The notes beneath the pieces are model-generated. The model made no database searches. It saw only the letters and a program-made list of their open reading frames with translations, and was not told the origin of the DNA. Of a stretch of DNA of 64,000 nt, positions 3,673 to 43,987 are shown piece after piece. Numbering within the stretch: the stretch's first letter is position 1; the number at the start of each line of letters is the position of its first letter. The stretch comes from Hexactinellida sp. DTS-2022 (lineage: Eukaryota > Porifera > Hexactinellida), in assembly GCA_028753945.1 (NCBI GenBank), contig JAPNXP010000013.1, forward strand, positions 2,418,001-2,482,000, written 5' to 3'. Both the position numbers and the translations under genes were made by a program.

Positions 3673-4209
3673 TTGGATACAGTAAGCTATAAATGTTAAG
3701 TACAGTCAGATTTAAATGCTTAAATTTCCTATATTGATTAATTATATACAGTAAACGTCCAAAATTTAAAAATCGGCTGCCAAAAAGCAACCGCTCATGG
3801 AATGTCCGTAACCATGGCTGTTTCTTATACAGGACTATTGCTTGGTGTACAGCGATTTTTGAACAATTAACTGTCCTCCTCTCGCACTTTCCATTTTTGA
3901 ATGTACAATAATTTCCGCCCTTAGTGTGGCAATGTAATATATTTCCCCCAAATTTAAATGGAAGACCAGGATTTTATATTATAATAAAGTACAATTTAAA
4001 TAAGGACTATGTATTTATTATGGTAAATATTCGTAAAATATTTGTCTAGAATAGATAATTGATTAAATAATAAAATAATTCCAAAATTTGAATAGACTTA
4101 AACAATTTCCGGGACTGTATAAGATGTACTGAGTAAATATACCTATACACTAACCGGCCAAATGTATTTAAACATCAACTATTGGTATTCATACATTCAA
4201 GCTTTTAGC
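3673..4209. other. Spacer with a Tc1-like TIR fragment
   Basis: At about 4149-4179 CACTAACCGGCCAAATG resembles the terminal repeats at 20343 and 21425-21452, so a fragment of the same family lies here. The rest shows nothing recognisable. Confidence 0.4.
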
Positions 4210-4920
4210 ATGACTGTGAAGTTGGCTTACTATTCGACCAGACTCACTTCAGTCAAATATTTGACTCACTTCTAGTTATCAGATTTGAATAAAATTAGTG
4301 TCATTCGAAGGAGGAGAAACGGAGGTTCTCCTTGATATGATTTATTTTCAATTATTTAAACTTTCAGTTGGTTATTTTTATCATACAAAGCCGCACTGGT
4401 ATCTCCTAAAAAATCACTATCTCAAAATTTAATTACATTTCTGAAAAATTGGCATTATACTTTTCAGAGAAGGAGGTTTATATGATTAAAATATTATTTC
4501 TAAATTCGCCCAAAAATTTGGGAGTTATAAACATTCAAACTTGAATTTGGGAAAATCAGTGGAAGTCGAAAATAGGAAAGTCAACTTATAGGAATATCCA
4601 ATAGTTCAAAGTGTCAATTCCTATCCAATAATAAACTGATTTCTAGTTTATTTTTGAATCATTCGTTAGAGGAGCACGGGGGTTTACCTCCTTGTTATTA
4701 GATTCTCGAATATTCCCTAAATAACAGACAAATCAGTCTTTAGAAAATGGCGTAAATCTGTGTTTTTATGGTGTTCTCTTTTCAAATTTTGAACTCAATT
4801 TCCGAGATCAAATATAAGCAGAATCGTTTAAAACTTTACAGGTACTTTCTCTGATATACAATAATTCATTCTCCCGATAAAAAAACAGGGGTCACTAGTA
4901 ATTTCTTTCAAAATATTTGA
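4210..4920 (+). repeat. Left long TIR arm of copy L
   Basis: Matches the reverse complement of 14128-14735 almost base for base, for example GGGAATATTCGAGAATCTAA in both arms. It is clearly less similar to the arms of copy R. The first bases ATGACTGTGAAG correspond to ACGAGTGTGAAG in copy R. Confidence 0.8.
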
Positions 4921-5351
4921 AATTTCTCGGGACAACAATATCTAATTAATTAAATTTTCAATATTCATACTTCAGTTAGCTTAGCATTAATAACAAGGAT
5001 GCACCTATAGCTCTAAATAGTATTTTCTCACAAGTTTAATTTGCGTCACACATTCATTAGTTTCACTTGCAAATTTAGCTTGCGTATTTAGGCTATTCTT
5101 AGAATACTTTTGCCTCGACTCAAGCTATGGGGAGATTTCGAACTTGACATTAATTGCTTTTTTGATCTTCATCATTCTTTCAAACATTTCCTTGATTCTT
5201 CTTCAATTATTTCTTGAACTTTAGTTCTCTTATACAATTATTTCTTGTTTCATTGGTTCTCATCTACAATTCTTTCTTCATTCATTAGTTCTATCTCAAT
5301 GATTTCTATTGAATTGCGGCGTGTTCGCATCGGATTGCATTGCACCCGCAG

Positions 5352-5466
5352 ATGTCGATCATCTCGGCTTTTATTGCATGTATACTAGCCATTCTACTCG
5401 TCATTGGCGGAATTGAGATTAATCCTGGGCCTATCACCCCAACTCAAAATACTCATCACGAACGAG
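5352..5466 (+). CDS. First exon of copy L ORF, hydrophobic leader with 2A-like NPGP motif
   Basis: The 38 codons from the ATG at 5352 end at a splice donor (CGAG|GTAATT, 5466/5467). The peptide is a hydrophobic run (ACILAILLVIGG) followed directly by IEINPGP. NPGP after D(V/I)ExNPGP is the signature of 2A ribosome-skipping peptides; here the consensus Asp is Gly. Similar hydrophobic-2A leaders are known at the N-terminus of some animal non-LTR retrotransposon ORFs and sea urchin NLR proteins. The next exon appears to start after TTTTTTTAG at about 5523. In copy R the equivalent exon is ruined by a stop and by NPRP, so only copy L keeps it. Confidence 0.5.
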
Positions 5467-5522
5467 GTAATTTTGACTGATGTATGTTATGGATAAGAAT
5501 AACTTTATTGTTATTTTTTTTA

Positions 5523-6423
5523 GAACTACAAGCTGAGATCAAATCTTTTGTCGACTCGACTCCTCTCCACAACACTATCATTCAAACAATTGCTCCAGAC
5601 CCTGTCTGCAAGCTACTGTAAGAACCCTGGTGAGGGATGCTTTGAACGAAGTTAAGCCTTTAGTAAGTCCCCCTAGTTCGTAGGAACATTTTAAAGTGAG
5701 TTATAGTCTTAGTAACTTAACTATTCTGAGCAGAGCATCATTGTTAATTTCCACAATCCTTAAGGAAGTAATTTTAAGTGTAGCTGCGTTCTGAATTATT
5801 TTCGTCATTCGATAACATAGATTACGAAATCTTGAATTGAATGTATTTGACAATAAACTTCTTATTGTATGGGCATCTTCTGCATCCGACCAAGCTGTAT
5901 ATGACCGGTTAAAGATTGATTCTCAAAATACAAATCTTAGTTCTCTGAATAGTGAAGTTCACGACGTGTATTATATGTCAATACAACTGAATGTCAGTTA
6001 TGGGTAGACGGTGCTATATTTTATGGATTAACTTGCCCACAAATCTTTCTGGTTTTTGCAATTCGGGGAAACTTGCTATCTTGATAAATGTTTTGATTGT
6101 ATTCCCACTATAGTAAGTACTTATTGTAAGAGTTTTGTGCAATGTACTCCTTTAGTGGTTTTGTGGTTGTCTGAATTACAGCTTTAATGTAGTTTCTTGT
6201 AACAAATGTTTGGTAAGAATATGTGTTTTTAAGTGGAGATGACTTGAGTCTTTTTATAACTTGGGTAAAGGCGTTGAGAGATGAGTACAATGCTAATAGT
6301 GTTAAGTGCTTAGAAGGTAAGTGTACTGATTTTAGTGTTAGAGCTGAAAGTGAATTTAGTGAACCACTTCCTCGTTCTCACGATGTGCCTAATATTAAAA
6401 CTGACAACTTTGAAACAGAAATG
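5523..6423 (+). pseudogene. 5' part of the copy L transposase, degraded, up to the Transib insertion
   Basis: Aligns in pieces with 43384-42362 of copy R. Compared with copy R, about 120 bases are missing near 5616, and single-base changes break the frame between 5700 and 6100. From about 5950 onward the nucleotide sequence is nearly identical to copy R. The segment 6223-6420 encodes SGDDLSLFITWVKALRDEYN and is cut at 6423 by the Transib-type element; the reading frame resumes at 9507. Function is inferred only from position upstream of the catalytic motifs. Confidence 0.6.
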
Positions 6424-6441
6424 CACAGTGGGTTATTATGG
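6424..6441 (+). repeat. Left TIR of the Transib-type element (RSS-heptamer-like)
   Basis: CACAGTGGGTTATTATGG; the first seven bases equal the consensus V(D)J recombination signal heptamer. No clear nonamer-like A-rich block is found at 12 or 23 bases from it. Confidence 0.95.
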
Positions 6442-6748
6442 CTATTCAGGGGAAATAGGCATTTGCGAGGCAGACAGACCTATCAAATGTATTATTTGCG
6501 TATGGGTTATCAACCCTCTACATTCAATTTACATCACTTAATTTTATGTACCGCTTCAATTTTTTGATTTAATGACGTCATCGTGACATCACATATTTAC
6601 AAAAATATCTATTTAGCTCTATAATGTGTTCCTAAATACTTCGAATGCAATGCATATTATTTTCACTCTATTTAAAACATACTACTTCATGCTTTCACGA
6701 TTCAATATTAACTTTCAAATTTTTATTATTAATATCATAGATACTAAA

Positions 6749-8881
6749 CTAAGGAATATATTTGAAGAGCAATGAATCCAAAAGTTTGTCCTGATCCAGT
6801 GAAGCCACTTTATCTCCTTTGCACTTCTCCTTCCTGATATGCCCTATTTCTCCGCAACGTTTGCACACTAAAACTCTACGGTAACTTGAAAAGAGAGGGT
6901 CACTCTGACTAAGAAGTCTAACAAAAACATCTCTGATGTTTAAGGAAAATGAATTTTTTCTTGAAAGGTGTTCACGATAGCGCCTTATTAGCTTATTACA
7001 AGCTTCTACAGCCTCTTCTGAATATTCTTTCAGTCCATAACCGTCATTGCAATCACGGATTAATTCTGTGGAATGAGCTAAAACCTTATGCAATGAAGGG
7101 GTAATACTTGCCCATGGGAAGGCTGTTAAAATTAGCTCGTAAGTCTGTTTGCAAAGGACATCCATTTCTTCTGTTTCTACCTCCTGGCTACTGTTAAAAA
7201 CTCGTAAGATAACTGATAGATTCATTTGAATGATTGCAATCTGCTCTCTAAAGTCTGCCGGAATTAGACAGAATACCCATGTGATAAAATCATTTTTATT
7301 GGAAAAACATTGCCTAGAAATATTCCCTGTTGAAGTAGTACCGCCTTGAGGTGTTGGCTGATCTATTCGAAGGACAGTTTTTTCAAAGAGAAATTCAGAA
7401 CAAAACTTTTTCGCTGTTTCGATTGGTTTTGAAGTAGGCGACCATACTCTCCTTCCAGACTTTAAATGATAAACAAGGAGCATGAACCAATGGAAGACAC
7501 AAGTATAGCTATGTAAAGGCGACGCCGACAGTATGTTTATATCGGATAGTGGTTCATGAGTGATACCTAACCTATCAGCATGAGGAAGTGATAAATATTC
7601 ATCCGCATCCACGTAATTGAACAGTTCTTTTGCATCTGCTATGTGCCTATTAATAGGGAATCCGGCCCTGACTAATTCTAGATCTTTTAATTCGTGTTTA
7701 TGTGCAGTACATAACTGACACGATGCGCCACCAGCTCCGCTTAGAATACCAGACATCTTCCCATCGAGCATACTACGGCTGATTTTAACACGAACAACAC
7801 CTTCAGGAAACTTTATTCCTTCTTGCTCAATGACTGATACTTCTGGATTAATGAAATTAGTCATAATGAATTTAACGTTCTCATAACATTCTTTCTGGGC
7901 CAATAATACAACTGGTCTTACGCCAAATGAAGAATTAGGTGAGTAGTTTTTCCATATTTGCATGTTACTCGAGTTGTGTATGGATAAAATTTTGAATGCG
8001 AATAAGATAAAAAATTTCGAACTTGGGGTTGGATTGAGTTGGTAATGATTATAAATCTGATGACAACCAGAACCATCGAGGCCGTCAGCAATTTTTACTG
8101 ATAAAGGGAATTCAAAATCAAGGATCGGAGGTAATGTTTGAAATAGACGTAATAAACTCTGGAATAAAATCCTTCTATAAGATAGTGAGATCCCGATAGT
8201 AACATTATGGACATTGTTTACATAGGTTAACTCGTTAACTAGAACGGCATCCTTACGATATTCAGCAAGTTTAGAATAAGATGGAAATATTATGTCCTCT
8301 GATTTACAAATTAACCGAAAAGATGTATATTTTTGCTTACCAATTTCGAGAAGATCAAGCAAGAACGTTGATTTATCTATGGACATAATTTTCGATTTAT
8401 CTGCAAATGTCCCCTTTGAAATGATTTCCTTGCAGAAGTTTGCCGTGCTTACATCCTTAGTCTCGTTAGAAATAAGTTGAAGCGCTTGAGCGGCTATGGT
8501 TTTGGCACTAACATCCTCTTTCTCAGCTATTTGACGGATTAGTTGCAATACTGGCGCTAATCTAGTTCTCAATCCCTTGAGGGTTAACTTTGATAAGTCC
8601 TTTCGTATTTCTGCTGATAAGTCAACGGTAAAGATTGCATTGTCAGCTGAAGGTATTTTCGCAGGTTGTTTAACTCTAGGAGAGTAAAACATCAACTCCT
8701 CCCAGGTGCATAAATTACTTTTCTTTACAAAGCTCTCTCTTCCCGATTTGAGATCGCGAAACTTTCGAGTAATGAAATGAAATTCGCTATCCGGCTGTTG
8801 GAATATGTTAAGTAATTCCTCAGAAGCAGCTCTGATTGATGGTTTAGAGTTTAAAAGTTTAAAAGCCTCTTTGTTATTCAT
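6749..8881 (-). CDS. Intact Transib-type / RAG1-like DDE transposase
   Basis: A 710-residue uninterrupted frame, the usual length for Transib transposases. It would cut and join DNA at the CACAGTG ends in the nucleus. Alignment by eye to the RAG1 core gives catalytic D266 (ADGLDGSG), D373 (SMLDGKMSG) and E626 (EEAVEACNKLIRRYR, like the NESGNKLFRRFR region holding RAG1 E962). The zinc pair C388/C391 (GGASCQLC) matches RAG1 C727/C730, and H598/H603 (HKVLAH) matches RAG1 HKTLAH. GGTTSTGN near 513-520 and LLSQSDPLFSS near 656-666 are Transib-like. A C-terminal zinc knuckle, C673-x2-C676-x4-H681-x5-C687, recalls the CCGHC tail motif described in RAG1-like transposases. There is no RING domain. The start ATG at 8881 gives a natural full length. 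No intron is needed. Active or recently active looks likely. Confidence 0.93.
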   Translation of the reverse strand: MNNKEAFKLLNSKPSIRAASEELLNIFQQPDSEFHFITRKFRDLKSGRESFVKKSNLCTWEELMFYSPRVKQPAKIPSADNAIFTVDLSAEIRKDLSKLTLKGLRTRLAPVLQLIRQIAEKEDVSAKTIAAQALQLISNETKDVSTANFCKEIISKGTFADKSKIMSIDKSTFLLDLLEIGKQKYTSFRLICKSEDIIFPSYSKLAEYRKDAVLVNELTYVNNVHNVTIGISLSYRRILFQSLLRLFQTLPPILDFEFPLSVKIADGLDGSGCHQIYNHYQLNPTPSSKFFILFAFKILSIHNSSNMQIWKNYSPNSSFGVRPVVLLAQKECYENVKFIMTNFINPEVSVIEQEGIKFPEGVVRVKISRSMLDGKMSGILSGAGGASCQLCTAHKHELKDLELVRAGFPINRHIADAKELFNYVDADEYLSLPHADRLGITHEPLSDINILSASPLHSYTCVFHWFMLLVYHLKSGRRVWSPTSKPIETAKKFCSEFLFEKTVLRIDQPTPQGGTTSTGNISRQCFSNKNDFITWVFCLIPADFREQIAIIQMNLSVILRVFNSSQEVETEEMDVLCKQTYELILTAFPWASITPSLHKVLAHSTELIRDCNDGYGLKEYSEEAVEACNKLIRRYREHLSRKNSFSLNIRDVFVRLLSQSDPLFSSYRRVLVCKRCGEIGHIRKEKCKGDKVASLDQDKLLDSLLFKYIP

Positions 8882-9483
8882 TCTATAATATCAACAGTCA
8901 AACAATGTTAAAATTTGATCAATTTTGAATTTTTATATTTTAAACATTTTAAGAAATTTATTAGTGACTTCTAGAAAATTGGGCAGAAGGGCCTCGGGGC
9001 GGCTTGGTGCGGTCCGATAAAATATACCAAATTAAAGTTAAACCAATTAGCTATCATAATAAAAATTAAAAACATCTGCTCACGACTGCTCACCAATATT
9101 TTTCACACTAAATAGGCAAAATAATTGTGTCCGATTATTGTTCAACATCATTGAGAGTACACAGAAAATTTTCAGAGAATTTGCTTACGACTCTCTCTTC
9201 GTATATTTATATACTAGCATAAATGTCAAAGGAATAAGAATATCATATCCGCCTTTACGTTTCTATGTAATTAAATATCAATTTATAAATAGAATCCAAC
9301 AGTTGTGAAACATCAAACTTTCACTATGAAAATTGTTTATCAAGTTAGTAATTAATCAACACACAAGTGAAGAACCTGAAGTACTATGACAATGAAAGTT
9401 GGATTTATAGGTTTTAGACAATGCGGAATAAGAATATAATAATATCAAAGCCATTCAGGAGTTTGAAAAATTACACTAATTCC

Positions 9484-9501
9484 CCATAATAACCCACTGT
9501 G
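9484..9501 (-). repeat. Right TIR of the Transib-type element
   Basis: CCATAATAACCCACTGTG, an exact inverted copy of the left 18 bases. Similarity stops immediately inside. Confidence 0.95.
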
Positions 9502-9506
9502 AAATG

Positions 9507-10394
9507 GTGATAGAGAGTTCTGAGATTGAAGTTCTAACTAATTTGAGTAGTAACTGTGGGGAGTTTTATCTCGAACTGAGTGAGTTGGATAATATTTGTA
9601 TTACCAATTCTACTGGTATAACTTCATTGGTTAGTAATTGGACTAATGTTTTTGCTTAAAAATTTAAAGATTTAGCCCCAATGTGTCTTTTAAAGTTTGT
9701 AAATTATTGGTTGAAGAAACCTGATAGTCGTAAGGTTAATAGTCCTTTCTTCAGAGCTACAGCGTCTTGTAAGTTTGAAAATTGTCGATCTTATATCTTT
9801 TATATTGATGATGCACTAAATTTGGTAGATAATGACATACTTGTCAAAATTTACTCAGAAGGATATTTGTCACTTCAACATACAGATGGGCAGAGTGCAT
9901 TTAGTCGCCATCTATCTTGCAGTGAGCGTAGTAAAATGGGAGAATTATTAGTTAATAATTCGGTTAATAAAATTTATAATAAACAGTTTAATAATTCAAG
10001 TAATCCTGGTCTCTGTTATGGTAATTTTACTTCTCTTAAATCACAAGATTGTTTGCGGAAAGTTAAAGCTGAATTGAAATCTAAGGAGCGATTTTCTAAT
10101 TTATATATGGAAGATATAACAGCAACCCAGCAGTATTTCCGTTATCTACTTCCTGAATCCCTCCTACCAGGCTATGTTCAGTATTTCGTACAGGATCCTT
10201 TCATTATTCATATGTATTCTTATAAGCAGCTGGAAATTCTAAAACTAATGAAAAGTAAAGATATTGTCTTGAATTTAGATGCGACTGGTTCTCTTATTTC
10301 TAAATCCCCTTCCTGTTCTGAGAAAATATATTACTATGCCCTTACAATACAACACCCGGAGTTTTCCACCAGTCCCATCCCATTAGCTAAATAA
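9507..10394 (+). pseudogene. Copy L transposase, central part with first catalytic-type Asp
   Basis: Continues from 6420 after the Transib insertion (VIESSEIEVLANLSSNCGEF…), has a stop at 9658-9660, then a 237-codon frame from 9681. That 237-residue stretch appears identical in copy R. It ends with …LNLDATGSLISK and YYYALTIQHPEFSTSPIPLAK, followed by TAA. The DATGS motif with a following P(I/V)PLAE block is typical of a family of DDE transposases in many invertebrates; the Asp is likely the first catalytic residue. A single-base shift after PLAK moves the frame to ISSDHSP, and the same shift is present in copy R. Confidence 0.6.
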
Positions 10395-10515
10395 TAAGTA
10401 GCGATCATAGCCCACTGAAATCTCACACTTCCTGAATAAATGGTGTTTGAGTGTAAAATTATTTAACACAATGGAGTTAAAAATTAAGAAAGTTGAGATA
10501 GATTTTAGTTGGGCT

Positions 10516-11231
10516 GTTGTATACCAGAATGACTCGCATGCTAGAATGACACAAACCATGGATGTTCACTATCTATGCTAGAATGACACGCTCTACTAAT
10601 CATCTAATGACTGTTAGAACTTCACAGGTTTCTCAGTTCATTCAATCAATTGCATTTCACTTTTTGATATGGCTTCTTTATCTTTAGATTTTAGAATACA
10701 GTAGTATTGCCAGAATGACTCGCATGCTGGAATGACACAAACCATGTATATTCACTATCTATGCTAGAATTTTGATAGAATTGAATTATAACAATGTAAC
10801 TATGGTTATTGAAAGGAATCTTACTGTATGTATGCCTTAATCTAGTAAATCTACGAGCACAGGAATATTAATTAGAACAGTATTCTACCAAACAATTTAA
10901 ATACCGAATAATTGGTGTTAATACCTATCTTAAAATGTCTAAATTTTAAACATACTTTTGCTTTTTCTATCAGCGAATATTGGTTTTAAAATAATGAAAT
11001 CAAATACGAAATCTTAGAATTCATTAAAACAAGTAGTACCTGTAATGCTATTTTAAAATCTAAAGATAAAGAAGCCATAGCAAAAAGTGAAATGTAATTG
11101 TCTGAATGAACTGAGAAACCTGTGAAGTTCTAACAGTCATTAGATGATTAGTAGAGCGTGTCATTCTAGCATAGATAGTGAACATCCATGGTTTGTGTCA
11201 TTCTAGCATGCGAGTCATTCTGGCATACAAC
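10516..11231. mobile_element. Foldback element inserted in copy L
   Basis: Absent from the same place in copy R (GTTGGGCTATGATGCAC is continuous there). The ends are inverted repeats GTTGTATACCAGAATGAC / GTTGTATGCCAGAATGAC; arms extend about 190 bases. Part of the left arm is repeated again in direct orientation at about 10690-10772. Flanks GGGCT and GAGCT may be a decayed 5-bp duplication. No coding region. Confidence 0.75.
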
Positions 11232-12060
11232 AGAGCTATGATGCACAGTACATGTTCAGCGTTTAACAAATTTACTATTTTTCATTATCTCCAATTATGT
11301 TTGGAATTTATAGCTAATAATGAGAACTTAGGTGATTATAATATAACAGTCCTCCATCTCTGCTAGGCTCATATCATGCACATAATTAGTTATAATTTAA
11401 ATAAGAAATTCAAATTAGAAAAAGCTTTAAAATTAATAAGATTGCATGTATTTGGTCGTATGGTTAATTGTAGACAAATGAATTATATTAATCAACTTTT
11501 CGGGTTACTTTGTTATATTTTGTGTAGTAAGAAGCAAACTAGTGTTTATTACACTAAATTAAACCAACTAGAAGAATGTATTAAGGCGGAGATTAATGTT
11601 AGTTATGATGCCTCCAATGAATTTGAGGTTGAGACTGAAGTTAAGATTAATGCTGTAACTTACAGATTGAAATCCCCCTTTGGCAGACATTTTGAAATGA
11701 TTTATCATAATACTTTAGTCTCAATAAGTGAATTCGAAAATAATTCACAACTTGATCCTAGTGTATCTTACAATCCCCAGATAGTTAAATTTCTTTTCGC
11801 GTATTATAAGCCATTATTACCGTTGTGGAGTGGGATAATTTTATGTAACGTTAATTCGTAAGAGAATGCAACACACAGTAATGCAGTTGTTGAGAATTGG
11901 TTCATAATAGTTAAACATAGCATATTAAATTCAGAGACTGGGATACGAGCTGCTGATTTCCTTAGAACAGTTTATAATAATATAGACGATAGGATCGCGG
12001 CGTTTAAATTTTCTTATACCCCACTGGCTCATAAAGTGTGTAACGTTATTATAGAGATTA
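11232..12060 (+). pseudogene. Copy L transposase, C-terminal part
   Basis: Resumes after the foldback. The frame reads DFSWA|MMHSTCSAFNKFTIFHYLQL across the insertion point (Asp in DFSWA is a candidate second catalytic residue), then a frame from 11376 and a frame at 11868-12060 with NAVVENWFIIVKHSI, whose Glu is a candidate third catalytic residue. It ends with PLAHKVCNVIIEITRG. Several single-base frameshifts separate the pieces, so as written it cannot make one protein. The family role is inferred from spaced D/D/E-like motifs; no biochemical class is certain. Confidence 0.55.
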
Positions 12061-12070
12061 CGCGTGGAGA

Positions 12071-12964
12071 ATGAGGAGTGCAAAGAGGAGTGGTATAGAA
12101 GTAAGAAGAGTAAATTTAGTTATATTAAACCAACTGTTGATAAAGTTAGTACGATATTTACAAATTTCAAGTCTAGTAAAGTTTTATGTAGAAAATATAA
12201 TTAAACGTTCAACAAACAGGGAGGTAGCTGCAATTTGTGAAGAAAATCCAGTCGATGTTTGTGATGGTATTTTGCGTGCAAGTGGAGTTGAAATAATTAG
12301 TGATTTAGATTTAGTAGAAATGGCTACCATGGAATATAAGTTACCGGCATTCCAACTACTTACATATCGGGGACAGAAGAAGTTATGTGAAGATTTACAT
12401 TTACAGTTGTCGGATTCTACAAATTCCATAAGAGATAATATCCCAGCTAATTCTAATTTAAAAGAATATCTTCCTTATAAGTGTTTTCGAATTCCTGGAG
12501 ATGGAAATTGTTTATTTGCATCATTATCATACTGGTTGACTGGAAAAATTGATAGTTTTAATTTTGTACGGTTGAAAGTTGTAGAGAATATGGTTGATAA
12601 GCTAAAGGAAGCATGCAATAAGTTTATTGCCAATAAATTTCCTAAGAGTGTAATTAACTATCGTAACGTGGCGGACTATGTAGTTAAATCAAATATGAAG
12701 AGGAATTCTACATGGGCTACTGATGATAAGTTATTTGCTACGGCCTTTTTACAGACGGATATTTGGGTATTTAGTTCAGACATGGGTAATAAGTGGATGG
12801 TATTCTCAGGTAGAGGGGTTAAACTAGTTGATACTTTGGAATCTCCCCCAGGAAATAATGCAGGCTCTATCTATATTAATCATAATGGAGTACATTATGA
12901 ACCAATATTACGGGTGGATTTAATATCTACTAGGCAATCAATGAATTACGTAGATATTAATTAA
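12071..12964 (+). CDS. OTU-family cysteine protease (deubiquitinase-like) of copy L
   Basis: A 297-codon frame. The OTU core starts near residue 145: GDGNCLFASLSYWLTG holds the Asp and nucleophile Cys, and the catalytic His lies in YINHNGVHYEPIL near residue 275. OTU enzymes cleave ubiquitin linkages; transposons of several classes carry them. The first ~45 codons overlap a different frame (V-E-N-E-E-C-K-E-E-W) that looks like the transposase tail, so the true start is probably later, possibly near codon 60. Almost identical to 39651-40520 of copy R. Sequence similarity between the copies falls off sharply right after this gene. Confidence 0.75.
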   Translation: MRSAKRSGIEVRRVNLVILNQLLIKLVRYLQISSLVKFYVENIIKRSTNREVAAICEENPVDVCDGILRASGVEIISDLDLVEMATMEYKLPAFQLLTYRGQKKLCEDLHLQLSDSTNSIRDNIPANSNLKEYLPYKCFRIPGDGNCLFASLSYWLTGKIDSFNFVRLKVVENMVDKLKEACNKFIANKFPKSVINYRNVADYVVKSNMKRNSTWATDDKLFATAFLQTDIWVFSSDMGNKWMVFSGRGVKLVDTLESPPGNNAGSIYINHNGVHYEPILRVDLISTRQSMNYVDIN

Positions 12965-13533
12965 TTAATTAAAACTATAGTATACTTAGATAACCAAAGG
13001 ATGACCTTTATTAGTTATAATTAATGTTTTATGCGGAATGTTATCCAGGTTTAGATGTGACTCCAGTTATAACGAAGTCCAACTACTGCACTTCGTTATA
13101 ACGGGAGTTCATTTCTATCGATGTAATTAATTAAAAGGATCTCAACCAAACTGATCCTTTTGATTACATCAATAGAAGCAAAGAAGGATAAAATGATTTC
13201 GGGCTCTTATAGCGAAAAATTGCGATTCTTATGTCTACAGGCAATAAACAAACAATGATACAGCCACCTCTACTTAACTAGTTAACAAGTATTGTCTATG
13301 TGGGATGGGAATTTAAGTGATTGTGTGACAACTGCAGAGAGATGTATTACTGTTAAATAGTAAAGATTTTCAACAACTTTTATGTTGGACAGATATAAAG
13401 TTGTAAGTTATATTCTTAAATGTACATGTGGATGATTTATAAATATTTGTGTAAAGATTTATCCTATAGTTCTTAAAATAAGGCAAATACAGAAAAGGAA
13501 TTGATCTATCCCAAAGCAGTCGGAATTGATATA

Positions 13534-13718
13534 CAGTAGTCTCCCAAAACGGACACTCCGAGAAGCGGACAACACCTCTAAAACGGACAAACATCCTGGA
13601 ACGGAATGAATTTACCATGCATGTAATTAATACTTCAGCCATCTCCGAGAAACGGACATCTCCAAACAACAAGCAAAGGCCATGTACCCAACGTGTCCGT
13701 TATTCGGAGACTCCACTG
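13534..13718. mobile_element. Pogo/Tc1-type MITE
   Basis: 185 bp between TA dinucleotides (13532-13533 and 13719-13720). Inverted ends CAGTAGTCTCCCAAAACGG and CAGTGGAGTCTCCGAATAACGG. Repeated ACGGACA words inside. No coding region. Confidence 0.75.
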
Positions 13719-14127
13719 TAAACACACATTATTTGAATGAGATGCCTGGATGCTATTCTCTCTTCTTGGAATTGGATAAGTAAGATCAATCCAAAAAGCA
13801 GTGGAAATTGATACAAGCACACATTATGGATGCCATTCTTTGTCACCTAACATTAATTTCAACCAGAATAATTCATTGTTTACTGATTCTGTTTGCATTC
13901 CAATCATCTGATGTCTAGTTATAGTATAGTTGCAATAACAATTTGCTATTATTAGTTGAAACTCAATGCTAGAATAGGAACGAAGAGGAAGCGAATGAAT
14001 TGTGTTACATCACGTAGATAGTTTAAATGATATCCCTAATATTGATGTTAATGATGAAATAAAAGTAGGCTTTAATAACTAAAATAATTAGATCGAAATT
14101 GAAGCATTTTGGGGAAATTAATATAAT

Positions 14128-14735
14128 TCTGAAAGAAATTACTAGCGACCCCTGTTTTTATTTGGGGGAATGAATTATAGTATATCAAAGAAAGTACCCG
14201 TAAAGTTTTAATCGATTCTGCTTCTATTTAATCTCGGAAATTGAGTTCAAAATTTGAAAAGAGAACACCATAAAAACACAGATTTACGCCATTTTCTAAA
14301 GACTGATTTGTCTGTTATTTAGGGAATATTCGAGAATCTAATAACAAGGAGGTAAACCTCCGTGTCTCCTCTAACGAATGATTCCAAAATAAACTAGAAA
14401 TCAGTTTATTATTGGATAGGAATTGACACTTTGAACTATTGGATATTCCTACTAAGTTGACTTCCTAATTTCGACTTCCACTGATTTTCCCAAATTCAAG
14501 TTTGAATGTTTATAACTCCAAAATTTTTGGGCGAATTTTGAAATAATATTTTAATCACATAAACCTCCTTCTCTCAAAAGTATAATGCCAATTTTTCAGA
14601 AATGTAATTAAATTTTGAGATAGTGATTTTAGGAGATACCAGTGCGGCTTTGTATGATAAAAATAACCAACTGAAAGTTTAAAAAATTGAAAATAAATGA
14701 TATCAAGGAAAACCTCCGTATCTCCTCTTTTGATT
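14128..14735 (-). repeat. Right long TIR arm of copy L, truncated
   Basis: Inverted match of 4210-4920. The outermost segment up to the …CTTCACACTCGT-type end is missing; similarity stops after CCGTATCTCCTCTT. The sequence beyond belongs to other repeats. Confidence 0.75.
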
Positions 14736-23139: not shown

Positions 23140-26100
23140 CGTGAACTACGTAATATAAGGACTGGAATCAACAATTAAAAAATGGACCATGGATGAAACA
23201 GAAGTGCATTGGATATTTTTGTATAATACATTCAGTTAGGAACTTTACAGGTGAAATATACTATATTTAGCTGAATTTAACTAAACGAGAAATATCCATC
23301 ATGATCATATCATTGAGGTCCATTCATTGTAAATATAACGTATTAATACGTATGTGAGAAACCGTACAGAATGCAGAATATGTGAAAAACACAATACAGA
23401 TTATGTGTAAACACTACAGAAACATTAAGGTTTAAATTTCTTTATTTTCCGGATATCTTTCTTTGCAGATGTTATTTCAGAGTTTATATTGCGAACCTTA
23501 TTGGCTAATATACAATTAGTGCATGTAGTTAGTATCTTCCTTATGATATTCCATCCAGAATTACTACAACCATCACAGTTATTCCTCCAATGCTCGCTAT
23601 ACCCATCAACCAATACGTATTCAGCTAAATGAATTAACACTTTTCTTGAAGGTGAGGAGTAGAATTGTTTCTTCAAAGAATCGTTTTCATCAAGTTTGGT
23701 AAATATTTTCCACAATACAATAATTGACTCGATTACAATATCTGAAGGCCATTTCAGAGAACCACGGTCGATATATCTTACAAGGTCATATTTTGTAGTT
23801 TCTGAAATTTCAATATCATTGTTCTCAGTTAGTTTTTGAACACAATGATGGATGTCGAGGTTAATAGAGTCTAGATCATGAATAACATCAATATATTGAT
23901 AATAGGATATGTGAATGGGTTCATCTGCTGTTGGGGAAAATGTGTTGATAAATTGCTTAAGGGTAAGTTCACTTTTGAATTGTTGTAATGAAAATAACTT
24001 AAGAATATTCGACAGGTTTAAGCGCCGTTGACTCTCTAAAATTTGAGAATATGTGATGTGATATTGAGCACCACTCATCATCCGATATAGTCCAAATTGA
24101 TGCTCAATAGGATCATTCTGGAGTCTAGAGCTAAGAACATACTCAAATCCACAATTCTGAATGAGATGTGCAATTATTAATGGGAAAGTAATACAATAAT
24201 GGCGAAAACTAATGAAAGTTTGTGCACTAAGTTTCCCACCCTTCCCAATAGTAGAACTCCACCGCTTATGCCAATTCGAAACTAAATCAAGATAAACAAA
24301 ACGCCAATCTTTGTCAGTAAGAGGTCTAGAATTCTCGTCATTCAAGCGCACATGCTTAAAAGGTGTATTTATGTTGAAGATCTTCCAAATTTTACTTAAT
24401 ACATCAACAAAGTTTGAAGTGTCATTTATAGATTCCGGATGTAAATCATTTTGAATTTTAAGAGCTGCACAAGTTGACTCGTTGAATACACGAAGTGCTA
24501 AATTAACGTTCTGACGTTCTAAACTAGTGGGCCAACATACCTTAGAACTTAGCCGGTGAGCTTGCTTCATAGTAGAATGTTGTTCACTCTTGTACAATTT
24601 TCGTATATCATTAAACTTTGCCTCATTCAGTTTAGTAGTAGAATTAGGGATTGAAGGAAAGAGTTGCATATCTGGATATGAAAACGTAAGATCATAATCC
24701 TTCAAGTTTAACCAATTGTTTCTCATCGATTTGATAATGTGAACAAAATCAAACAAGATATAAAGCTTTCTCTCTGGACAAGTTGGATGTTGAACAGCAG
24801 GAAGTAATGTCTTTTGATCAGAAGAAAACAATTAAAAAAAACGTACATTCAGGGGATAATTATCTGTAACGAGAACTTCAACAAATAAATCACACTTTTC
24901 TATATCGTTGATTTCAGAACTGACCATTGGGTATAATTCCTCAGCAGTAGAAAAGTTTGATGGGAGCAACCGTACAACTTGTGACCATTTTTTGGATAGA
25001 CTAGAAATCATTATGGAAAAACTTTTTTAGTTGGAGAAGTTGGATCAGTATCACCAATAACCTTTCCACCTAAACAAATAAAAAATTTAAATTTGCTTAA
25101 AAGTGCACAAGTATGTACTGCAAGTGAAACAACAGTATTTACCTTGATAAGAAATTGCTGGTGAAACGTGGATTTCGTCCATATTGAGAATAACATGTCG
25201 GTTCCTCTGAGAAAAATCAGCAGTTAACTTTTTAAGCAGATGTAAATATTCGGTATCCTATCCTATACTTGAGGATAGAACTCGAATTGACTTTGTTATT
25301 GGAAGAATAAGACAATCCAACGATTGAAAAAAACGATAGCAAGCGGGTGATATCAAATGTGCTTTTAAGGCAATGGTCTAGAAGGAAATAAGAGGTAAAC
25401 AATAAAGCACTACATGAGGTTAGAAAATTATAATCTCACCTGGGTAACTACGTTATATCTCCGTCTTTTTTCTGAAACTAGCGAGTTTTCAAGTTGGCAT
25501 ATAACGAACTGGAGGAAGGGTAATAAAGGTGTCCTGTGTTGCAGCTCACAGAGCTCAGTTAGTTCTGTATCTTCTAAAATTGATATAGACGACTGTATTT
25601 AATGGCTGCTTCTTTGATATTTACAAGAACATGGCTTGAATCAAATATCTCAGGGTTTGGCTCGAAATTTGAAATATCATCAATTAGGGATTCGATCTGC
25701 CGTAGGTCTGATATTCGCTTAAGATGCAAGGGCACTTGGTGTTGGCAACTAACGGCTGAAACCGTTAAATCTGAATTGATTGTTAACGTAGATTGGATGT
25801 TAACGGATTGGTCAAGGAGTTTTAGTTGTAAGATTTGCAAGGTGTTACTAGAGGATACCACACTATCCAATCTGGGCTTAGACGTAAATCAGGCAACTTA
25901 GTTCTAAGTTCCTCAAAAGAATCCAGAGCGAATCGTAATTTATCTTGTTGGTATTGAACAATGCTATCATGAAGACCTTGAGCAAAATATTCTTCTTCCT
26001 TAGATTCTCGACTAAAACGCTTTGATGTCTGAGCAGTTGAAGTAAAATGAGATGGAAAACCATGGGAAATAACTGGTACAGCGTTAGGACTGTACGTTGG

Positions 26101-36700: not shown

Positions 36701-37469
36701 TAATGATACTAAAATACGCTTTGTATGAATTTTTTCTAGGTTCAACCTTCCAACGACCAGACTAATATCTTTCTGGAAAAACGAGATATTGTATTTACTA
36801 ATTCTGTAAGCAGAGTTTCGATTTGCCTGACATTATAAATACAGTCGATCCCTAAGGATATTTCTTTGGACTGGAATAAACCTCGTGCTTTCAACGTAGA
36901 GTCAATGATCAAAGCTGCTTCTACTCTAACAACTCCTCTGATTTACATGGATAAATTAAGTTTACCATATCTTCTTGTAACCACACAAGCCAAGGATCAG
37001 GATAGTTTGAATTTATTTTCTCCTTCAGGTCAGAAAATCTTTCGACATCAAACAATTTACCTTCTGTATCTTTTGTTTCGAGACTAAGATTACGAGCGAT
37101 AATAATTAATTTTTCTTCCTTAGTTTCATGTGAGAAACGAGATGCTCGCGATGTATGCGTAGAAGATAAATAGCTAGGACAGCCAGGAAGAAGTGAAGTT
37201 ACAGCACCTTTAACTAAAAGAGGTCTGTCTCGTTTGAGGTACTTGATTTCTACGCCGTCATTAATTCTAAACGTGTAGTCAATGTATTGTTTGAGGAAAT
37301 GCTTTATACACACATAGAATGTCTTAGGAGGATTAAGATGTTCTCTGTGTAACGCGTTTAGCCAAGCTTGACGTAATTCTGGATCTTCGGGAGACTTGAA
37401 TACGGGTGTATAGGCATCATTCGGATAGTAGTTGCTTTTACATCCAGGAGCCCAGCATTTGTTTGGCAT
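33702..37469 (-). pseudogene. P-element/THAP9-type transposase of element 2
   Basis: THAP finger from 37469: CWAPGCKSNYYPNDAY (C-x4-C), WLNALHREHL, then YVCIKHF (C-x2-H) and KGAVTSLLPG. After the foldback (35905-36772) coding resumes: YDPLWDFNDQIISQPRDM, SLECIALPHFNTIQKLY, NVILQMDEIHVKSDLTY (RNase H-like Asp), PLDSIRNLFLIFDFVHILKS (second Asp region), ARLIAKSCWPTSFERQNVNL, LQTDALEHHFGLYRMMSG, and a C-terminal CxxC…H block with a basic tail ending at 33702. Introns explain some breaks. Frameshifts near 34390 and 34850 and the foldback mean the copy is probably inactive. Confidence 0.85.
35905..36772. mobile_element. Foldback element inside P-like element 2
   Basis: Nearly perfect palindrome of about 868 bp. 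Outer parts CTGGTCGTTG / CAACGACCAG and CATACAAAGCG / CGCTTTGTATG; the centre contains ATAGGATTTGACGAGATT and its inverse around 36265-36345. The arms are interrupted by a short unmatched block (36410-36480) in the right arm. It breaks the transposase of its host. Confidence 0.75.
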
Positions 37470-37851: not shown

Positions 37852-38505
37852 ACGAGTGTGAAGTTGGCTTAGTATTCGACCAGGGTCACTTCAGTCACAT
37901 ATTTGACTCACTTTTAGTTATCAGATTTGAATAAATTTAATATCATTGGAGAGAGGAGATACGGAGGTTTACTGTAATATGATTTATTTAAAACAAAATA
38001 GTTTTCAGTTAGTTATTTTTATCATACAATTCAGGGTTGGTATTTCATATAAAATCACTATCTCAAAATTTGTTCACAATTCTGAAAATTTGTAATTATA
38101 CTTTGAAGAAATGGAGGTTTATGTGATTTAAATTATATTTAAAATTTCCCAAAAAAATTTGATTTATAAACATTCAAACTTGAATTTTGGAAATGAGTGG
38201 AAGTATAATTTTGGAAAGTACATTGAGTAGGGTTAGTTCAAAGTGTCAATTCCTATCCAATATCAAACTGAATCTAATATATTTTGGTATCATTCGTTAG
38301 AGGAGACACGGAGGTTTACTTCAATGCCATTAGATTCTCGAATATTCCCTATATAACAGACAAATAAGTATTTTTTAAATGGTATAAATCTAAAATACAA
38401 TCAGAATCGATTCAAACTTTACAAGTACTTTCTCTGATATATTATTATTCAATCCCCCGAAAAAGAAACAGATGTCGCTAGTCATTTCTTTCAGAATTTT
38501 AAAAT
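37852..38505 (+). repeat. Left long TIR arm of copy R
   Basis: Inverted partner of 43988-44681. Ends inward near TCGCTAGTCATTTCTTTCAG. Confidence 0.8.
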
Positions 38506-39286
38506 TTCTCCAAAAGGTTACAAATTCGATTTCTTCATTATTTTTGCTAAGCCTACCTTCATTATATCATATTCTATTAGTGTAGACTATCTACGTAATG
38601 TAACATAATTCATTCGCTTCCTCTTAGTTCCCATTCTAGCATTGAGTTTATAGTAACTTTCAACTAGTAATAGCAGATTGTTATTGCAACTATATTCACA
38701 CTATACAAGTCAAATAAATGATTGGAATGCAAACAGAATCTTGTAAACAAAGAATATTCTGGCTGTTGCAATAACTTGTAGGTGATAATTATAAACAAAT
38801 GCAAGAAGAGAATGACATCCAAAAATGCGTGCTTGTATTAATTCCGCCTGCTTTATTGGATTGATCTTACTTATAGAAGAGAAATGCCATCCAGTAATTT
38901 CATTAAAATAATTCGTGCTTGTATAAATTCCGACTGCTCTTGGATTGATCTTACTTATCCAATTCCTTCTCTCCAGAAATATATGTATTTGCCTTCTTTT
39001 GAGAACTAGAGGGTGAAACTTTTCACTAATATGTATATATCACCGCATATTTATTTTAAGAAATAACTTACCACTATAAATGTTGGCCAATATAAATGGA
39101 GAGAGAGTGGCTTTATAATTGTTAGTTAATTGCCTACAGACATCAAAATCGCAATCTTTTGCACTATCAAGCCCGAAATTCCTTTATTCTTCTATCTTTC
39201 TATCGATGAAATTAAAAGGATCACTTGGAAATTCCTTTTAATTACATCCATAAAAGTTAACTCCCGTTATAACGAAGTCCCAAGTA

Positions 39287-39463
39287 CAGTCGAATTCGGG
39301 TTTTTTTGCCCCCCAAATGCACGACAAAAGGAGGCAAAAAAAACCAATAAGCAAAAAAACCCGATGGAAAACACATTAAGATATCACATTTTTGCACGAC
39401 AAAAGGAGGCAAAAAAACCCAATAAGCAAAAAAACCCGTGGCAAAAAAACCCGATTTCGACTG
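39287..39463. mobile_element. TA-flanked MITE in copy R
   Basis: 177 bp between TA dinucleotides. Ends CAGTCGAATTCGGGTTTTTT and, inverted, CAGTCGAAATCGGGTTTTTT. The internal block TTTTGCACGACAAAAGGAGG is present twice. Copy L lacks it at the corresponding place (near 13090). Confidence 0.8.
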
Positions 39464-39650
39464 TAATTTAACTTCGTTGTAACGGGAGTTAACTGTATAT
39501 ACCAAAGAGTATTCTAAACCTGGATAGTATTCTGCATACAACAAATAATTATTTATTTATTTATTAATAAAGGAAATTTTCTTTAATTATCTAATTATAC
39601 TATAGTTATTAATTAAATATTATCTACGAGGTAATCAATGAATTCATTGA

Positions 39651-40520
39651 TTACTTCGTAGATATTAAATCCACCCGTAATATTGGTTCATAATGTACTC
39701 CATTATGATTAATATAGTTAGAGCCTGCATTATTTCCTGGGGGAGATTCCAAAGTATCAACTAGTTTAACCCCTCTACCTGAGAATACCATCCACTTATT
39801 ACCCATATCTGAACTAAATACCCAAATATCCGTCTGTAGTAATAAGGCCGTAGCAAATAACTTATCATCAGTAGCCCATGTAGAATTCCTCTTCATATTT
39901 GATTTAACTACATAGTCCACCACGTTACGATAGTTAATTACACTCTTAGGAAATTTATTGGCAATAAACTTATTGCATGCTTCCTTTAGCTTATCAACCA
40001 TATTCTCTACAACTTTCAACCGTACAAAATTAAAACTATCAATTTTTCCAGTCAACCAGTATGATAATGATGCAAATAAACAATTTCCATCTCCAGGAAT
40101 TCGCAAACACTTATAAGGAAGATATTCTTTTAAATTAGAATTAGCTGGGATATTATCTCTTATGGAATTTGTAGAATCCGACAACTGTAAATGTAAATCT
40201 TCACATAACTTCTTCTGTCCCCGATATGTAAGTAGTTGGAATGCCGGTAACTTATATTCCATGGTAGCCATTTCTACTAAATCTAAATCACTAATTATTT
40301 CAACTCCACTTGCACGCAAAATACCATCACAAACATCGACTGGATTTTCTTCACAAATTGCAGCTACCTCCCTGTTTGCTGAACGTTTAATTATATTTTC
40401 TACATAAAACTTTACTAGACTTGAAATTTGTAAATATCGTACTAACTTTATCAACAGTTGGTTTAATATAACTAAATTTACTCTTCTTACTTCTATACCA
40501 CTCCTCTTTGCACTCCTCAT
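39651..40520 (-). CDS. OTU-family cysteine protease of copy R
   Basis: 289 codons, almost identical to 12071-12964. The core has GDGNCLFASLSYWLTG (nucleophile Cys) and YINHNGVHYEPIL (catalytic His). It would act on ubiquitin conjugates; for a transposon the benefit is unknown. The true start is probably internal because the first part overlaps the transposase tail in another frame. The last residues (…VDLISTK) and everything downstream diverge from copy L. Confidence 0.75.
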   Translation of the reverse strand: MRSAKRSGIEVRRVNLVILNQLLIKLVRYLQISSLVKFYVENIIKRSANREVAAICEENPVDVCDGILRASGVEIISDLDLVEMATMEYKLPAFQLLTYRGQKKLCEDLHLQLSDSTNSIRDNIPANSNLKEYLPYKCLRIPGDGNCLFASLSYWLTGKIDSFNFVRLKVVENMVDKLKEACNKFIANKFPKSVINYRNVVDYVVKSNMKRNSTWATDDKLFATALLLQTDIWVFSSDMGNKWMVFSGRGVKLVDTLESPPGNNAGSNYINHNGVHYEPILRVDLISTK

Positions 40521-40559
40521 TCTCCACGCGTAATCTCTATAATAACGTTACACACTTTA

Positions 40560-41470
40560 TGAGCCAGTGGGGTATAAGAAAATTTAAACGCCGCGATCCT
40601 ATCGTCTATATTATTATAAACTGTTCTAATGAAATCAGCAGCTTGTATCCCAGTCTCTGAATTTAATATGCTGTGTTTAACTATTATGAACCAATTCTCA
40701 ACAACTGCATTACTGTGTGTTGCATTCTCTTACGAATTAACGTTACATAAAATTATCCCACTCCACAACGGTAATAATGGCTTATAATACGCGAAAAGAA
40801 ATTCAACTATCTGGGGATTGTAAGATACACTAGGATCAAGTTGTGAATTATTTTCGAATTCACTTATTGAGACTAAAGTATTATGATAAATCATTTCAAA
40901 ATGTCTGCCAAAGGGGGATTTCAATCTGTAAGTTACAGCATTAATCTTAACTTCAGTCTCAACCTCAAATTCATTGGAGGCATCATAACTAACATTAATC
41001 TCCGCCTTAATACATTCTTCTAGTTGGTTTAATTTAGTGTAATAATGAGTAGTTTGCTTCTTACTACACAAAATATAACAAAGTAACCCGAAAAGTTGAT
41101 TAATATAATTCATTTGTCTACAATTAACCATACGACCAAATACATGCAATATTATTAATTTTAAAGCTTTTTCTAATTTGAATTTCTTATTTAAATTATA
41201 ACTAATTATGTGCATGATATGAGCCAGCAGAGATGGAGGACTGTTATATTATAATCACCTAAGTTCTCATTATTAGCTATAAATTCCCAACATAATTGGA
41301 GATAATGAAAAATAGTAAATTTGTTAAACGCTGAACATGTAATGTGCATCATAGCCCAACTAAAATCTATCTCAACTTTCTTAATTTTTAACTCCATTGT
41401 GTTAAATAATTTTACACTCAAACACCATTTATTCAGGAAGTGTGAGATCTCAGTGGGCTATGATCGCTAC
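40560..41470 (-). pseudogene. Copy R transposase, C-terminal part
   Basis: In order: TEISHFLNKWCLSVKLFNTM, then KIKKVEIDFSWAMMHITCSA (candidate second Asp, uninterrupted here), LQLCWEFI, a frame 41215-40730 (HIISYNLNKKFKLEKALKLI), and NAVVENWFIIVKHSI (candidate Glu) in a shifted frame. The shift between PLAK at 41474 and ISSDHSP is the same as in copy L. Confidence 0.55.
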
Positions 41471-41473
41471 TTA

Positions 41474-42187
41474 TTATTTAGCTAATGGGATGGGACTGGT
41501 GGAAAACTCCGGGTGTTGTATTGTAAGGGCATAGTAATATATTTTCTCAGAACAGGAAGGGGATTTAGAAATAAGAGAACCAGTCGCATCTAAATTCAAG
41601 ACAATATCTTTACTTTTCATTAGTTTTAGAATTTCCAGCTGCTTATAAGAATACATATGAATAATGAAAGGATCCTGTACGAAATACTGAACATAGCCTG
41701 GTAGGAGGGATTCAGGAAGTAGATAACGGAAATACTGCTGGGTTGCTGTTATATCTTCCATATATAAATTAGAAAATCGCTCCTTAGATTTCAATTCAGC
41801 TTTAACTTTCCGCAAACAATCTTGTGATTTAAGAGAAGTAAAATTACCATAACAGAGACCAGGATTACTTGAATTATTAAACTGTTTATTATAAATTTTA
41901 TTAACCGAATTATTAACTAATAATTCTCCCATTTTACTACGCTCACTGCAAGATAGATGGCGACTAAATGCACTCTGCCCATCTGTATGTTGAAGTGACA
42001 AATATCCTTCTGAGTAAATTTTGACAAGTATGTCATTATCTACCAAATTTAGTGCATCATCAATATAAAAGATATAAGATCGACAATTTTCAAACTTACA
42101 AGACGCTGTAGCTCTGAAGAAAGGACTATTAACCTTACGACTATCAGGTTTCTTCAACCAATAATTTACAAACTTTAAAAGACACAT
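41474..42187 (-). pseudogene. Copy R transposase, central part
   Basis: 237 codons, apparently the same protein as 9681-10394. It contains a Cys pair (ASCKFENCRSY), DPFIIHMYSYKQLE, then LNLDATGSLIS with the candidate first catalytic Asp, and ends PIPLAK plus stop. The stop at PLAK breaks an otherwise continuing transposase frame. Confidence 0.6.
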
Positions 42188-42208
42188 TGGGGCTAAATCT
42201 TTAAATTT

Positions 42209-43384
42209 TTAAGCAAAAACATTAGTCCAATTACTAACCAATGAAGTTATACCAGTAGAATTGGTAATACAAATATTATCCAACTCACTCAGTTCGAGAT
42301 AAAACTCCCCACAGTTACTACTCAAATTAGCTAGAACTTCAATCTCAGAACTCTCTATCACCATTTCTGTTTCAAAGTTGTCAGTTTTAATATTAGGCAC
42401 ATCGTGAGAACGTTGAAGTGGTTCACTAAATTCACTTTCAACTCTAACACTAAAATCAGTACACTTACCTTCTAAGCACTTAACACTATTAGCATTGTAC
42501 TCATCTCTCAACGCCTTTACCCAAGTTATAAAAAGACTCAAGTCATCTCCACTTAAAAACACATATTCTTACCAAACATTTCTTACAAGAAACTACATTA
42601 AAGCTGTAATTCAGACAACCACTAAAGGAGTACATTGCACAAAACTCTTACAATAAGTACTTACTATAGTAGGAATACAATCAAAACATTTATCAAAATA
42701 GCAAGTTTCCCCGAATTGCAAAAAACCAGAAAGATTTTGTGGACAAGTTAATCCATAAAATATAGCACCGTCTACCCATAACTGACATTCAGTTGTATTG
42801 AACATATAATACACGTCGTGACCTTCACTATTCAGAGTACTAAGATTTGTGTTTTGAGAATCTCTCTTCAATCGGTCATACATAGCTTGATCGAACGCAG
42901 AAGATGCCCGCACTATATGAAGTTTATCGTAAACTAAATCAAATTTAAGTTTTCTTAAATCTAAGTTATCGAGTGCCGAAAATAAATCAGAACACGCAGC
43001 TACACTTAAACTTACTTCCTTATGAATAGTGGAAGTTACCAATGATGCTCTCCTCTGAATAGTTAAGTTTGTAATGTACAACTCACGTGAAATTGTTCCT
43101 CCGAACTAGGGGGACTTACTAATAACTTCGCTCAAAGCATCCCTCACCAGCGTTCTTATGTTATGAGAGTTGTTTCTCCATTTCAAGTACAAGCTGTGTC
43201 TCTTGACATGCTTGTTACACGAGTAAACCTTCTTACAGATCGAACCCCAAATAGAACTAGGCGAACTGTAGCTGACAGACAGGGACTGGATCAATTGTTC
43301 AAATGTTAGTGTTGTGGAGAGGAGTGCGTCGATAATAGAGTTTATCTCTGCTGGTAGACTGGTAGTAGTTCTAAAAAATAACAT
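42209..43384 (-). pseudogene. Copy R transposase, 5' part (several exons or frames)
   Basis: Pieces: 43384-43106 after an acceptor (TTTTTTAG), ending at DALSEVIS before GTAAGT; 43081-42611 with CQLWVDGAIFYGLTCPQN and CYFDKCFDC (Cys-rich, possible zinc binding), followed by GTAAGT; a short piece FNVVSCKKCL; and 42562-42209, which spans the empty site for the Transib-type element at NFETEMVIES. Exon structure is plausible but not proven. A leader exon upstream (43430-43600) is degraded. Confidence 0.5.
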
Positions 43385-43987
43385 CCTTATTTATAACGTA
43401 TATCAATCAAATTACCATGTTTGTGACGAGTATCTTGAGTTGGGGTGATAGGCCGCGGATTGATCTAGTTGCCGCCAATGACAAGTAAAATAGCTATTAT
43501 ACAAGCAATATTAGCCGAGCTCAGTGAAACAGATGAATCAATTTGGTCTGTTGATGATAGATTATGGTTATTGCATTTGCGGCTACAATGTAAACCGATG
43601 CGAGCACACCACAATTCAATAGAAATCATTGAAGGAGAACAATGAAGAAATTAATCAAGAAAGAATTTTAGAAGAGAACTAAAATTCAAGAAATAGGGGA
43701 AGAAGAAAAATGAAAAGATTGATAAAGATAAAAAATAATGAAAACAAAATAGTGTAAAGTTGGAAATCTATTTCTATTCTTAGGAAAAACTTATATATTC
43801 TAAGAATAGATTATAGGCGCAACAGCTAAATTCCTTTTAAAATGTGTGAGTGGAACTAGCGATTGTGTGACGCAAATTCGACTTGTGAGAAATACTGTTT
43901 AGGTAATAGGTGTATAGTTATTATGAGCTTGCCACTTACAACTTGAGTATGAATATTTAGTTAATTAATGTTTTCCACGAAAAGAAA

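Follow-up and report, generated by a model that had tools for sequence, protein, structure and literature searches.

The window analysed here is a stretch of 64,000 nucleotides from the glass sponge Hexactinellida sp. DTS-2022 (GenBank assembly GCA_028753945.1, contig JAPNXP010000013.1, positions 2,418,001 to 2,482,000 of the forward strand), and it carries an intact transposon of the Transib superfamily, whose transposases are related to RAG1. The second subunit of RNA polymerase III agrees with a glass-sponge host: over a 961-residue stretch, the best match from a named species is Oopsacas minuta (Hexactinellida) with 86% identity, three other proteins reach 91, 87 and 82%, and the demosponge Halichondria and various other animals stay at about 63% or below. 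We regard this element, with a probability of about 0.8, as an autonomous cut-and-paste Transib, recently mobile and similar to the Subgroup I Transibs, that would bring a short-spacer and a long-spacer end into synapsis by means of the heptamer CACAGTG and a second motif, GAANTAGG. The second motif lies at two distances from the heptamer, 12 bp on one side of the element and 21 bp on the other, and the same arrangement recurs throughout the sponge genome. We will first detail the element and its target site, then its transposase, its ends and its relatives, before comparing it with the known systems.

The element and its target site

The element spans positions 6424-9501 (3078 bp), its two ends are identical over 18 bp in inverted orientation with CACAGTG as their first letters, and a 5-bp target-site duplication, AAATG, is found on both flanks. 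All of this had been described in an earlier note, made from the letters of the window, and is confirmed here, as is its statement that the 710-residue transposase is uninterrupted. The corresponding open reading frame (ORF), on the minus strand, is stop-free and is the sole one of at least 80 amino acids contained entirely in the element. There is thus no RAG2-like partner ORF of that size wholly inside 6424-9501, a search that did not extend to split genes.

The insertion is demonstrated, together with the exact extent of the element, by an empty site within the same window. When the two flanks are joined around a single AAATG, the resulting 29 letters have exactly one match in the window, at 42350-42378 on the minus strand, and none of 100 shuffled versions matched. 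Around this site, identity between the flanks of the filled and empty copies is 99.8% on one side (1015 nt) and 90.8% on the other (811 nt). The empty site that the earlier note had placed at about 42361-42380 is therefore real, but it is a paralogous copy of the target and not an allele, because it is located in the inverted second copy of the host element. Indeed, the insertion target is one of two inverted copies of a DNA element with long terminal inverted repeats (TIRs), at about 4206-14733 and 37852-44685, and the Transib sits in the first of them. The inner arms of these copies extend over about 610 nt at 95% and about 700 nt at 90%, and the ORFs of this long-TIR element include an OTU-type cysteine protease (12071-12964).

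The transposase and its RAG1-like features

Judged from its sequence, the 710-residue protein is a Transib transposase. It matches the Pfam RAG1 profile with an E value of 3e-6 and 26.1 bits (cut-off 25), and its best match among solved structures is HzTransib (E 8e-21), followed by RAG1-like proteins and then RAG1, which bears out the homology first proposed from the letters. The features that define the Transib superfamily are all found in the element, namely a RAG1-related DDE transposase, TIRs with a heptamer like that of the recombination signal sequences, 5-bp duplications and a single gene.

Most of the residues highlighted in the earlier note are in place (D373, E626, the CxxC pair C388 and C391, and the HxxxxH pair H598 and H603). 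Its first catalytic aspartate, D266, is ruled out, as the alignments with RAG1 and HzTransib point to D269, three residues further on in DGLDGSG; both D266 and D269 are invariant among the 13 aligned sequences. We take the aspartate aligned to D269 to be the catalytic D600 of RAG1.

Two regions beyond the catalytic residues are of particular relevance. The first is the zinc region, in which the segment 405-454 of the sponge protein aligns with RAG1 and is largely missing in HzTransib. The match to HzTransib begins at residue 163, and in it this segment faces only chain residues 241-255, so that some 35 residues of the zinc region have no counterpart in HzTransib. The second is the C-terminal tail, CKRCGEIGHIRKEKC at 673-687, which reads Cx2Cx3GHx5C and is thus a CCGHC tail with x5 instead of the x4 of the CTT1 type. 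These traits were compared in 28 rows, made of the window protein and the 27 relatives in which our script located both zinc pairs. The tail is strict in 16 of them, degenerate in 5 and absent from 7, which are 382-566 amino acids long, while 205-208 residues separate the two zinc pairs in 27 of these rows.

The predicted fold is RAG1/Transib-like and agrees with both RAG1 and HzTransib in the structural comparison that the earlier note had proposed, HzTransib being the closest solved structure with the better of two models. A region like the nonamer-binding domain (NBD) of RAG1 is seen in the profile alignment with RAG1, which starts from profile position 61, and in the structural alignment, in which the predicted model can be followed from its residue 87 to RAG1 388.

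Such a fold, with its predicted NBD-like region, and a tail resembling that of the invertebrate RAG1L proteins (PMC7204232, in part) are also what one would see in a RAG1-RAG2 type (RAGL) transposon or in a domesticated RAG1-like host gene. We rejected this explanation, which is extremely improbable here: no second ORF of at least 80 amino acids lies wholly in the element (with the above limit on split genes), the Pfam scan of the 710-residue protein found neither a RING nor another N-terminal RAG1 domain, and the element exists as several mobile copies with duplications. A genome search with PF03089, the RAG2 family, gave no match, but its control was equally silent, so it carries little weight. 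The "RAG1-like transposon" of the earlier note is thus correct as to RAG1/Transib homology and becomes, more precisely, a single-gene Transib and not a RAG1-RAG2 transposon.

Ends with two spacers

The earlier note had reported the heptamer, which is indeed identical to that of V(D)J recombination, and had missed the second motif, whose 12/21 spacing ties the element more closely to the V(D)J signals than the heptamer does by itself. When the ends of three families were compared, this motif was found at unequal distances on the two sides, and in the window element a motif of the GAANTAGG type lies 12 bp from the heptamer on the 5' side of the gene and 21 bp from it on the 3' side. We scored the motif at end-like sites as GAANTAGG with at most one mismatch (7 of 8). 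Under this threshold, it is present at 33 of the 43 end-like sites of the examined loci, 16 times at 12 bp, 17 times at 21 bp and never elsewhere, and at 7 of the 83 other heptamer-like sites, with scattered distances.

The same pattern is observed over the whole genome (112.4 million bases in 18 contigs). CACAGTG followed by GAANTAGG at 4-34 bp gives 671 pairs, against 9 in the reversed control, and 648 of them are concentrated in 7 of the 31 possible spacers, with 252 pairs at 11-13 bp (control 0) and 396 at 20-23 bp (control 3). For the heptamer alone, the figures are 10484 and 7649. Among the first 100 of the 671 pairs, the spacer is 12 bp in 33, 21 bp in 38, 22 bp in 21 and another length in 8. 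A G precedes the motif in almost all of the rows listed, and a nine-letter reading would give spacers of 11 and 20-21 bp; the firm quantity is the difference of 9-10 bp between the short and the long spacers.

The two kinds of ends are also ordered with respect to each other and to the gene. Among these first 100 pairs, 20 sets of facing neighbours lie within 5 kb, of which 18 combine a short with a long end (11-12 with 21-22 bp) and none combines two short ones. Next to the transposase matches of contigs C1 and C2, short ends are found 5' of the gene in 5 of 5 cases and long ends 3' of it in 8 of 8, a polarity that the window element shares. Twelve of the 20 facing pairs are just 0.97-2.1 kb apart, which suggests that many non-autonomous elements carry the same signals.

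These ends could nevertheless belong to an ordinary Transib. Its second motif would then be a regulatory site or simply subterminal sequence passed on by descent, the spacing would not matter for pairing, and the first 15-18 bp would suffice for the enzyme. The perfect repetition of the first 18 bp in the window family fits this, as does the proposal of Martin 2020 (PMC7204232, in part) that RAGL complexes with a CCGHC tail depend chiefly on the terminal 15-17 bp and respond rather little to asymmetry. However, the letters of the spacer vary across families, while the heptamer, the motif and their distance persist in the 252 + 396 pairs. By eye, at least 10 different long-spacer sequences can be told apart in 100 rows of 20-23 bp pairs; therefore, the distance is kept and the sequence is not. 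Under simple inheritance, the distance would not persist while the spacer sequence was lost, and the mixed composition of 18 of the 20 facing pairs likewise speaks against this reading. We thus consider an ordinary Transib of this kind quite unlikely.

Several observations weigh against a pairing of short with long ends. Ten of the 43 end-like sites fall under the 7-of-8 threshold, and the window's own short end matches at 7 of 8 positions only. The two exceptions among the facing pairs are one 22/22 and one 12/28 combination, although the row of the latter suggests a damaged inner heptamer. Many of the ends are copies of one another and are not independent, and the ends of locus L070, with 47% protein identity, lack the exact GAANTAGG motif.

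Locus L070 (297-3621) is itself a distant Transib with CACAGTG ends and the duplication CATTT. Past its heptamers, at 21 and 12 bp respectively, stand ACTTTAGG and TATTTGGC, perhaps a diverged second motif. No paired ends were found at locus L069 by the end-pairing script.

For the autonomous Transib with mixed ends that we favour, the transposase would bind each end at the heptamer, and the second motif would be read either by the NBD-like N-terminus or by the zinc tail. One end with a 12-bp spacer would then be synapsed with one end with a 21-22-bp spacer, and we infer that the enzyme prefers such mixed short/long pairs. Hairpin chemistry is known for HzTransib and RAG, and by analogy a nick followed by a hairpin may be made beside the heptamer of the sponge element, with subsequent insertion at a 5-bp stagger. 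The broader proposal, that a one-turn/two-turn pairing rule, read by the NBD and free of RAG2, is at work in many families of glass-sponge Transibs and at hundreds of their ends, is a tentative one that we would call possible and not yet probable.

Copies and relatives of the element

The genome contains 10 places with 98-100% identity to the window element. Seven are full-length and uninterrupted, and all seven have perfect 5-bp duplications, of which six are different (CATGG occurs twice). An eighth copy, at C4:1678806-1684905 (L047, L057), is split on its non-coding side by an insertion of about 3 kb, yet keeps its ends, TGAGA on both sides and an intact ORF; in the remaining two places, one of the ends is missing. 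Among the seven full-length copies, divergence is 0.42-2.02%, and the window and C4 copies differ at 5 of 2783 sites. The genome search suggested in the earlier note thus gives further full-length copies with the same ends and 5-bp duplications, and neither of the outcomes that the note named as refuting it (no significant RAG1/Transib match, or copies with deviating ends or duplication lengths) came about.

How recent this mobility is can be read in two ways. An unbroken 710-residue protein is encoded by 2 of the 10 places, which would be expected if the family were now dead and the window copy a recent relic with no active source left. On the other hand, the two full proteins are encoded by copies that differ at just these 5 of 2783 sites, with perfect duplications and ends. 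Other families have stop-free frames too, as at C1:2361382-2363505. Between the window family and that of C1:2361101, the non-synonymous divergence (dN) is 0.24 and the NG86 estimate of synonymous divergence (dS) was returned as -1, which we read as saturated, so that the comparison fits purifying selection during divergence. We therefore hold the extinction of the family to be rather doubtful and retain an autonomous, recently mobile Transib.

More distant relatives, with 41-79% protein identity, amount to 67 matches from the 63 scored of 1037 first-look candidates. The window itself contains a piece of a further Transib transposase at 61-561 on the minus strand, which is 53% identical to the 710-residue protein over 154 amino acids, includes the zinc region and has a histidine at the residue aligned with D373. 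In contigs of bacterial and archaeal genomes, 20 stretches fitted the search pattern and none was confirmed as a relative.

A database profile search returned 49 relatives, of which 8 are named, all from Oopsacas minuta, and a second one aimed at other taxa returned 56 proteins, of which the named ones are again all from Oopsacas. Some of the 8 carry the label V(D)J recombination-activating protein 1 or DNA-mediated transposase, and genes of this kind were thus present in public databases before; the comparison with them covers their database labels only.

Connections with the known RAG1-type systems

By its features, the architecture of the sponge element resembles most closely that of the Transibs which Tao et al. 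2022 (PMC9435367) place in Subgroup I. These have a RAG1L-type tail, the RAG2-binding segment of the zinc domain and, in all reported cases, asymmetric ends, while Subgroup II has another tail type and both kinds of ends; an NBD equivalent is reported for both subgroups, and the CTT1 tail is given as Cx2Cx3GHx4C (PMC9435367). The sponge element likewise has a single transposase gene, ends starting with CAC, 5-bp duplications, an NBD-like region, a CCGHC tail of the CTT1 type and asymmetric ends, and it probably shares the RAG1-like zinc segment. It differs by its heptamer, which is exactly CACAGTG, by its second motif, which is GAANTAGG and lies 12 and 21-22 bp away, and by its host, glass sponges being unnamed in the main text of PMC9435367, whose hundreds of elements in 'other metazoans' may include sponges.

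This placement meets some resistance from the structural comparisons. The nearest solved structure of the better model is HzTransib, which we take as Subgroup II for its lack of the zinc segment, and the low-confidence C-tail of that model also superposes on the HzTransib tail. The poorer first model ranked RAG1 chains over HzTransib (26.4 vs 24.6), so the order is model-dependent.

HzTransib (6pqn, 6pqx) has the same catalytic core as the sponge protein and is its closest match in sequence and, for the better model, also in fold; its ends are reported to be symmetric and to bear hardly any or no similarity to the nonamer (PMC8289069, in part). ProtoRAG and other RAGL elements have the CCGHC tail, bipartite asymmetric ends and 5-bp duplications in common with it, whereas the sponge element has neither a RAG2-like gene nor the N-terminal zinc domains of RAG1. 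Their end elements are separated by 27/31 bp in ProtoRAG (PMC8289069, in part) and by 4/13 bp in the algal AanRAGL, likewise a difference of 9 bp (PMC9435367). The vertebrate signals consist of CACAGTG, 12 or 23 bp and the nonamer ACAAAAACC (PMC8289069, in part). The sponge ends share with them the heptamer and the use of two spacers, short and long, that differ by about one turn, and the transposase has a predicted RAG1 fold with NBD. In contrast, they have GAANTAGG instead of ACAAAAACC and spacers of 12/21-22 instead of 12/23 bp, and there is no RAG2; the vertebrate nonamer with 12/23 spacers is thus not found at the sponge ends.

Most Transib families are described with symmetric ends (PMC8289069, in part), but some insect Transibs have 12/23-like ends, and a 2021 review knew such asymmetry in only a few Transib families (PMC8355894, in part). 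Given these insect elements, Subgroup I and AanRAGL, asymmetry in Transib ends was already known, and the sponge element is a further Transib example. Judged from titles and the starts of abstracts, the literature searched holds no report joining Transib with Hexactinellida or a hexactinellid with RAG1, and no title on a sponge Transib; the Oopsacas genome paper (PMC10280926) uses neither the word Transib nor RAG1 in the available part of its main text.

Feature coordinates and other elements of the window

Table 1. Features of the Transib element and of its empty target site, in window coordinates
Feature	Position	Strand	Remarks
Target-site duplication AAATG, left copy	6419..6423	.	Same as 9502-9506; single in the empty site
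Left TIR, 18 bp; long-spacer end, 3' side of gene	6424..6441	+	Heptamer CACAGTG at 6424-6430
Second end motif GAAATAGG	6452..6459	+	21 bp past heptamer; genome-wide spacing agrees
Transib transposase gene, 710 aa (by sequence)	6749..8881	-	D269/D373/E626, C388/C391, H598/H603, C-tail 673-687, NBD-like region about 87-165
Second end motif GAATTAGT	9475..9482	-	7/8 to GAANTAGG; 12 bp past heptamer; genome-wide spacing agrees
Right TIR, 18 bp; short-spacer end, 5' side of gene	9484..9501	-	Heptamer at 9495-9501
Target-site duplication AAATG, right copy	9502..9506	.	Same as 6419-6423
Paralogous empty target site	42350..42378	-	Single AAATG at 42362-42366; exact 29-letter match; about 400 nt aligned on either flank

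Other mobile elements are also represented in the window. A PIF1-like helicase ORF (53177-53893) and an ORF with a Helitron_like_N domain (60983-63778) are probably Helitron pieces. Directly before the latter lies a tandem array (59413-60732) with a 141-bp unit, 9.4 copies and 98% matches. The ORFs at 23425-24831 and 36921-37469, with a TNP-like GTP-binding insertion domain and a THAP domain, probably derive from transposons of the THAP/P-element type.

Significance for the origin of the 12/23 rule

How the 12/23 rule arose is one of the questions still open about the beginnings of V(D)J recombination. What is new here is a glass-sponge lineage in which the heptamer is exactly CACAGTG, the transposase is intact, and several hundred ends keep to two distances with a fixed polarity. 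An early-branching animal thus provides a natural set of ends and a testable enzyme with which one can ask if asymmetric pairing exists without RAG2. If such a pairing rule does operate without RAG2, asymmetry of the 12/23 type would be an old property of the RAG1-type transposases, one that predates the recruitment of RAG2 and adaptive immunity.

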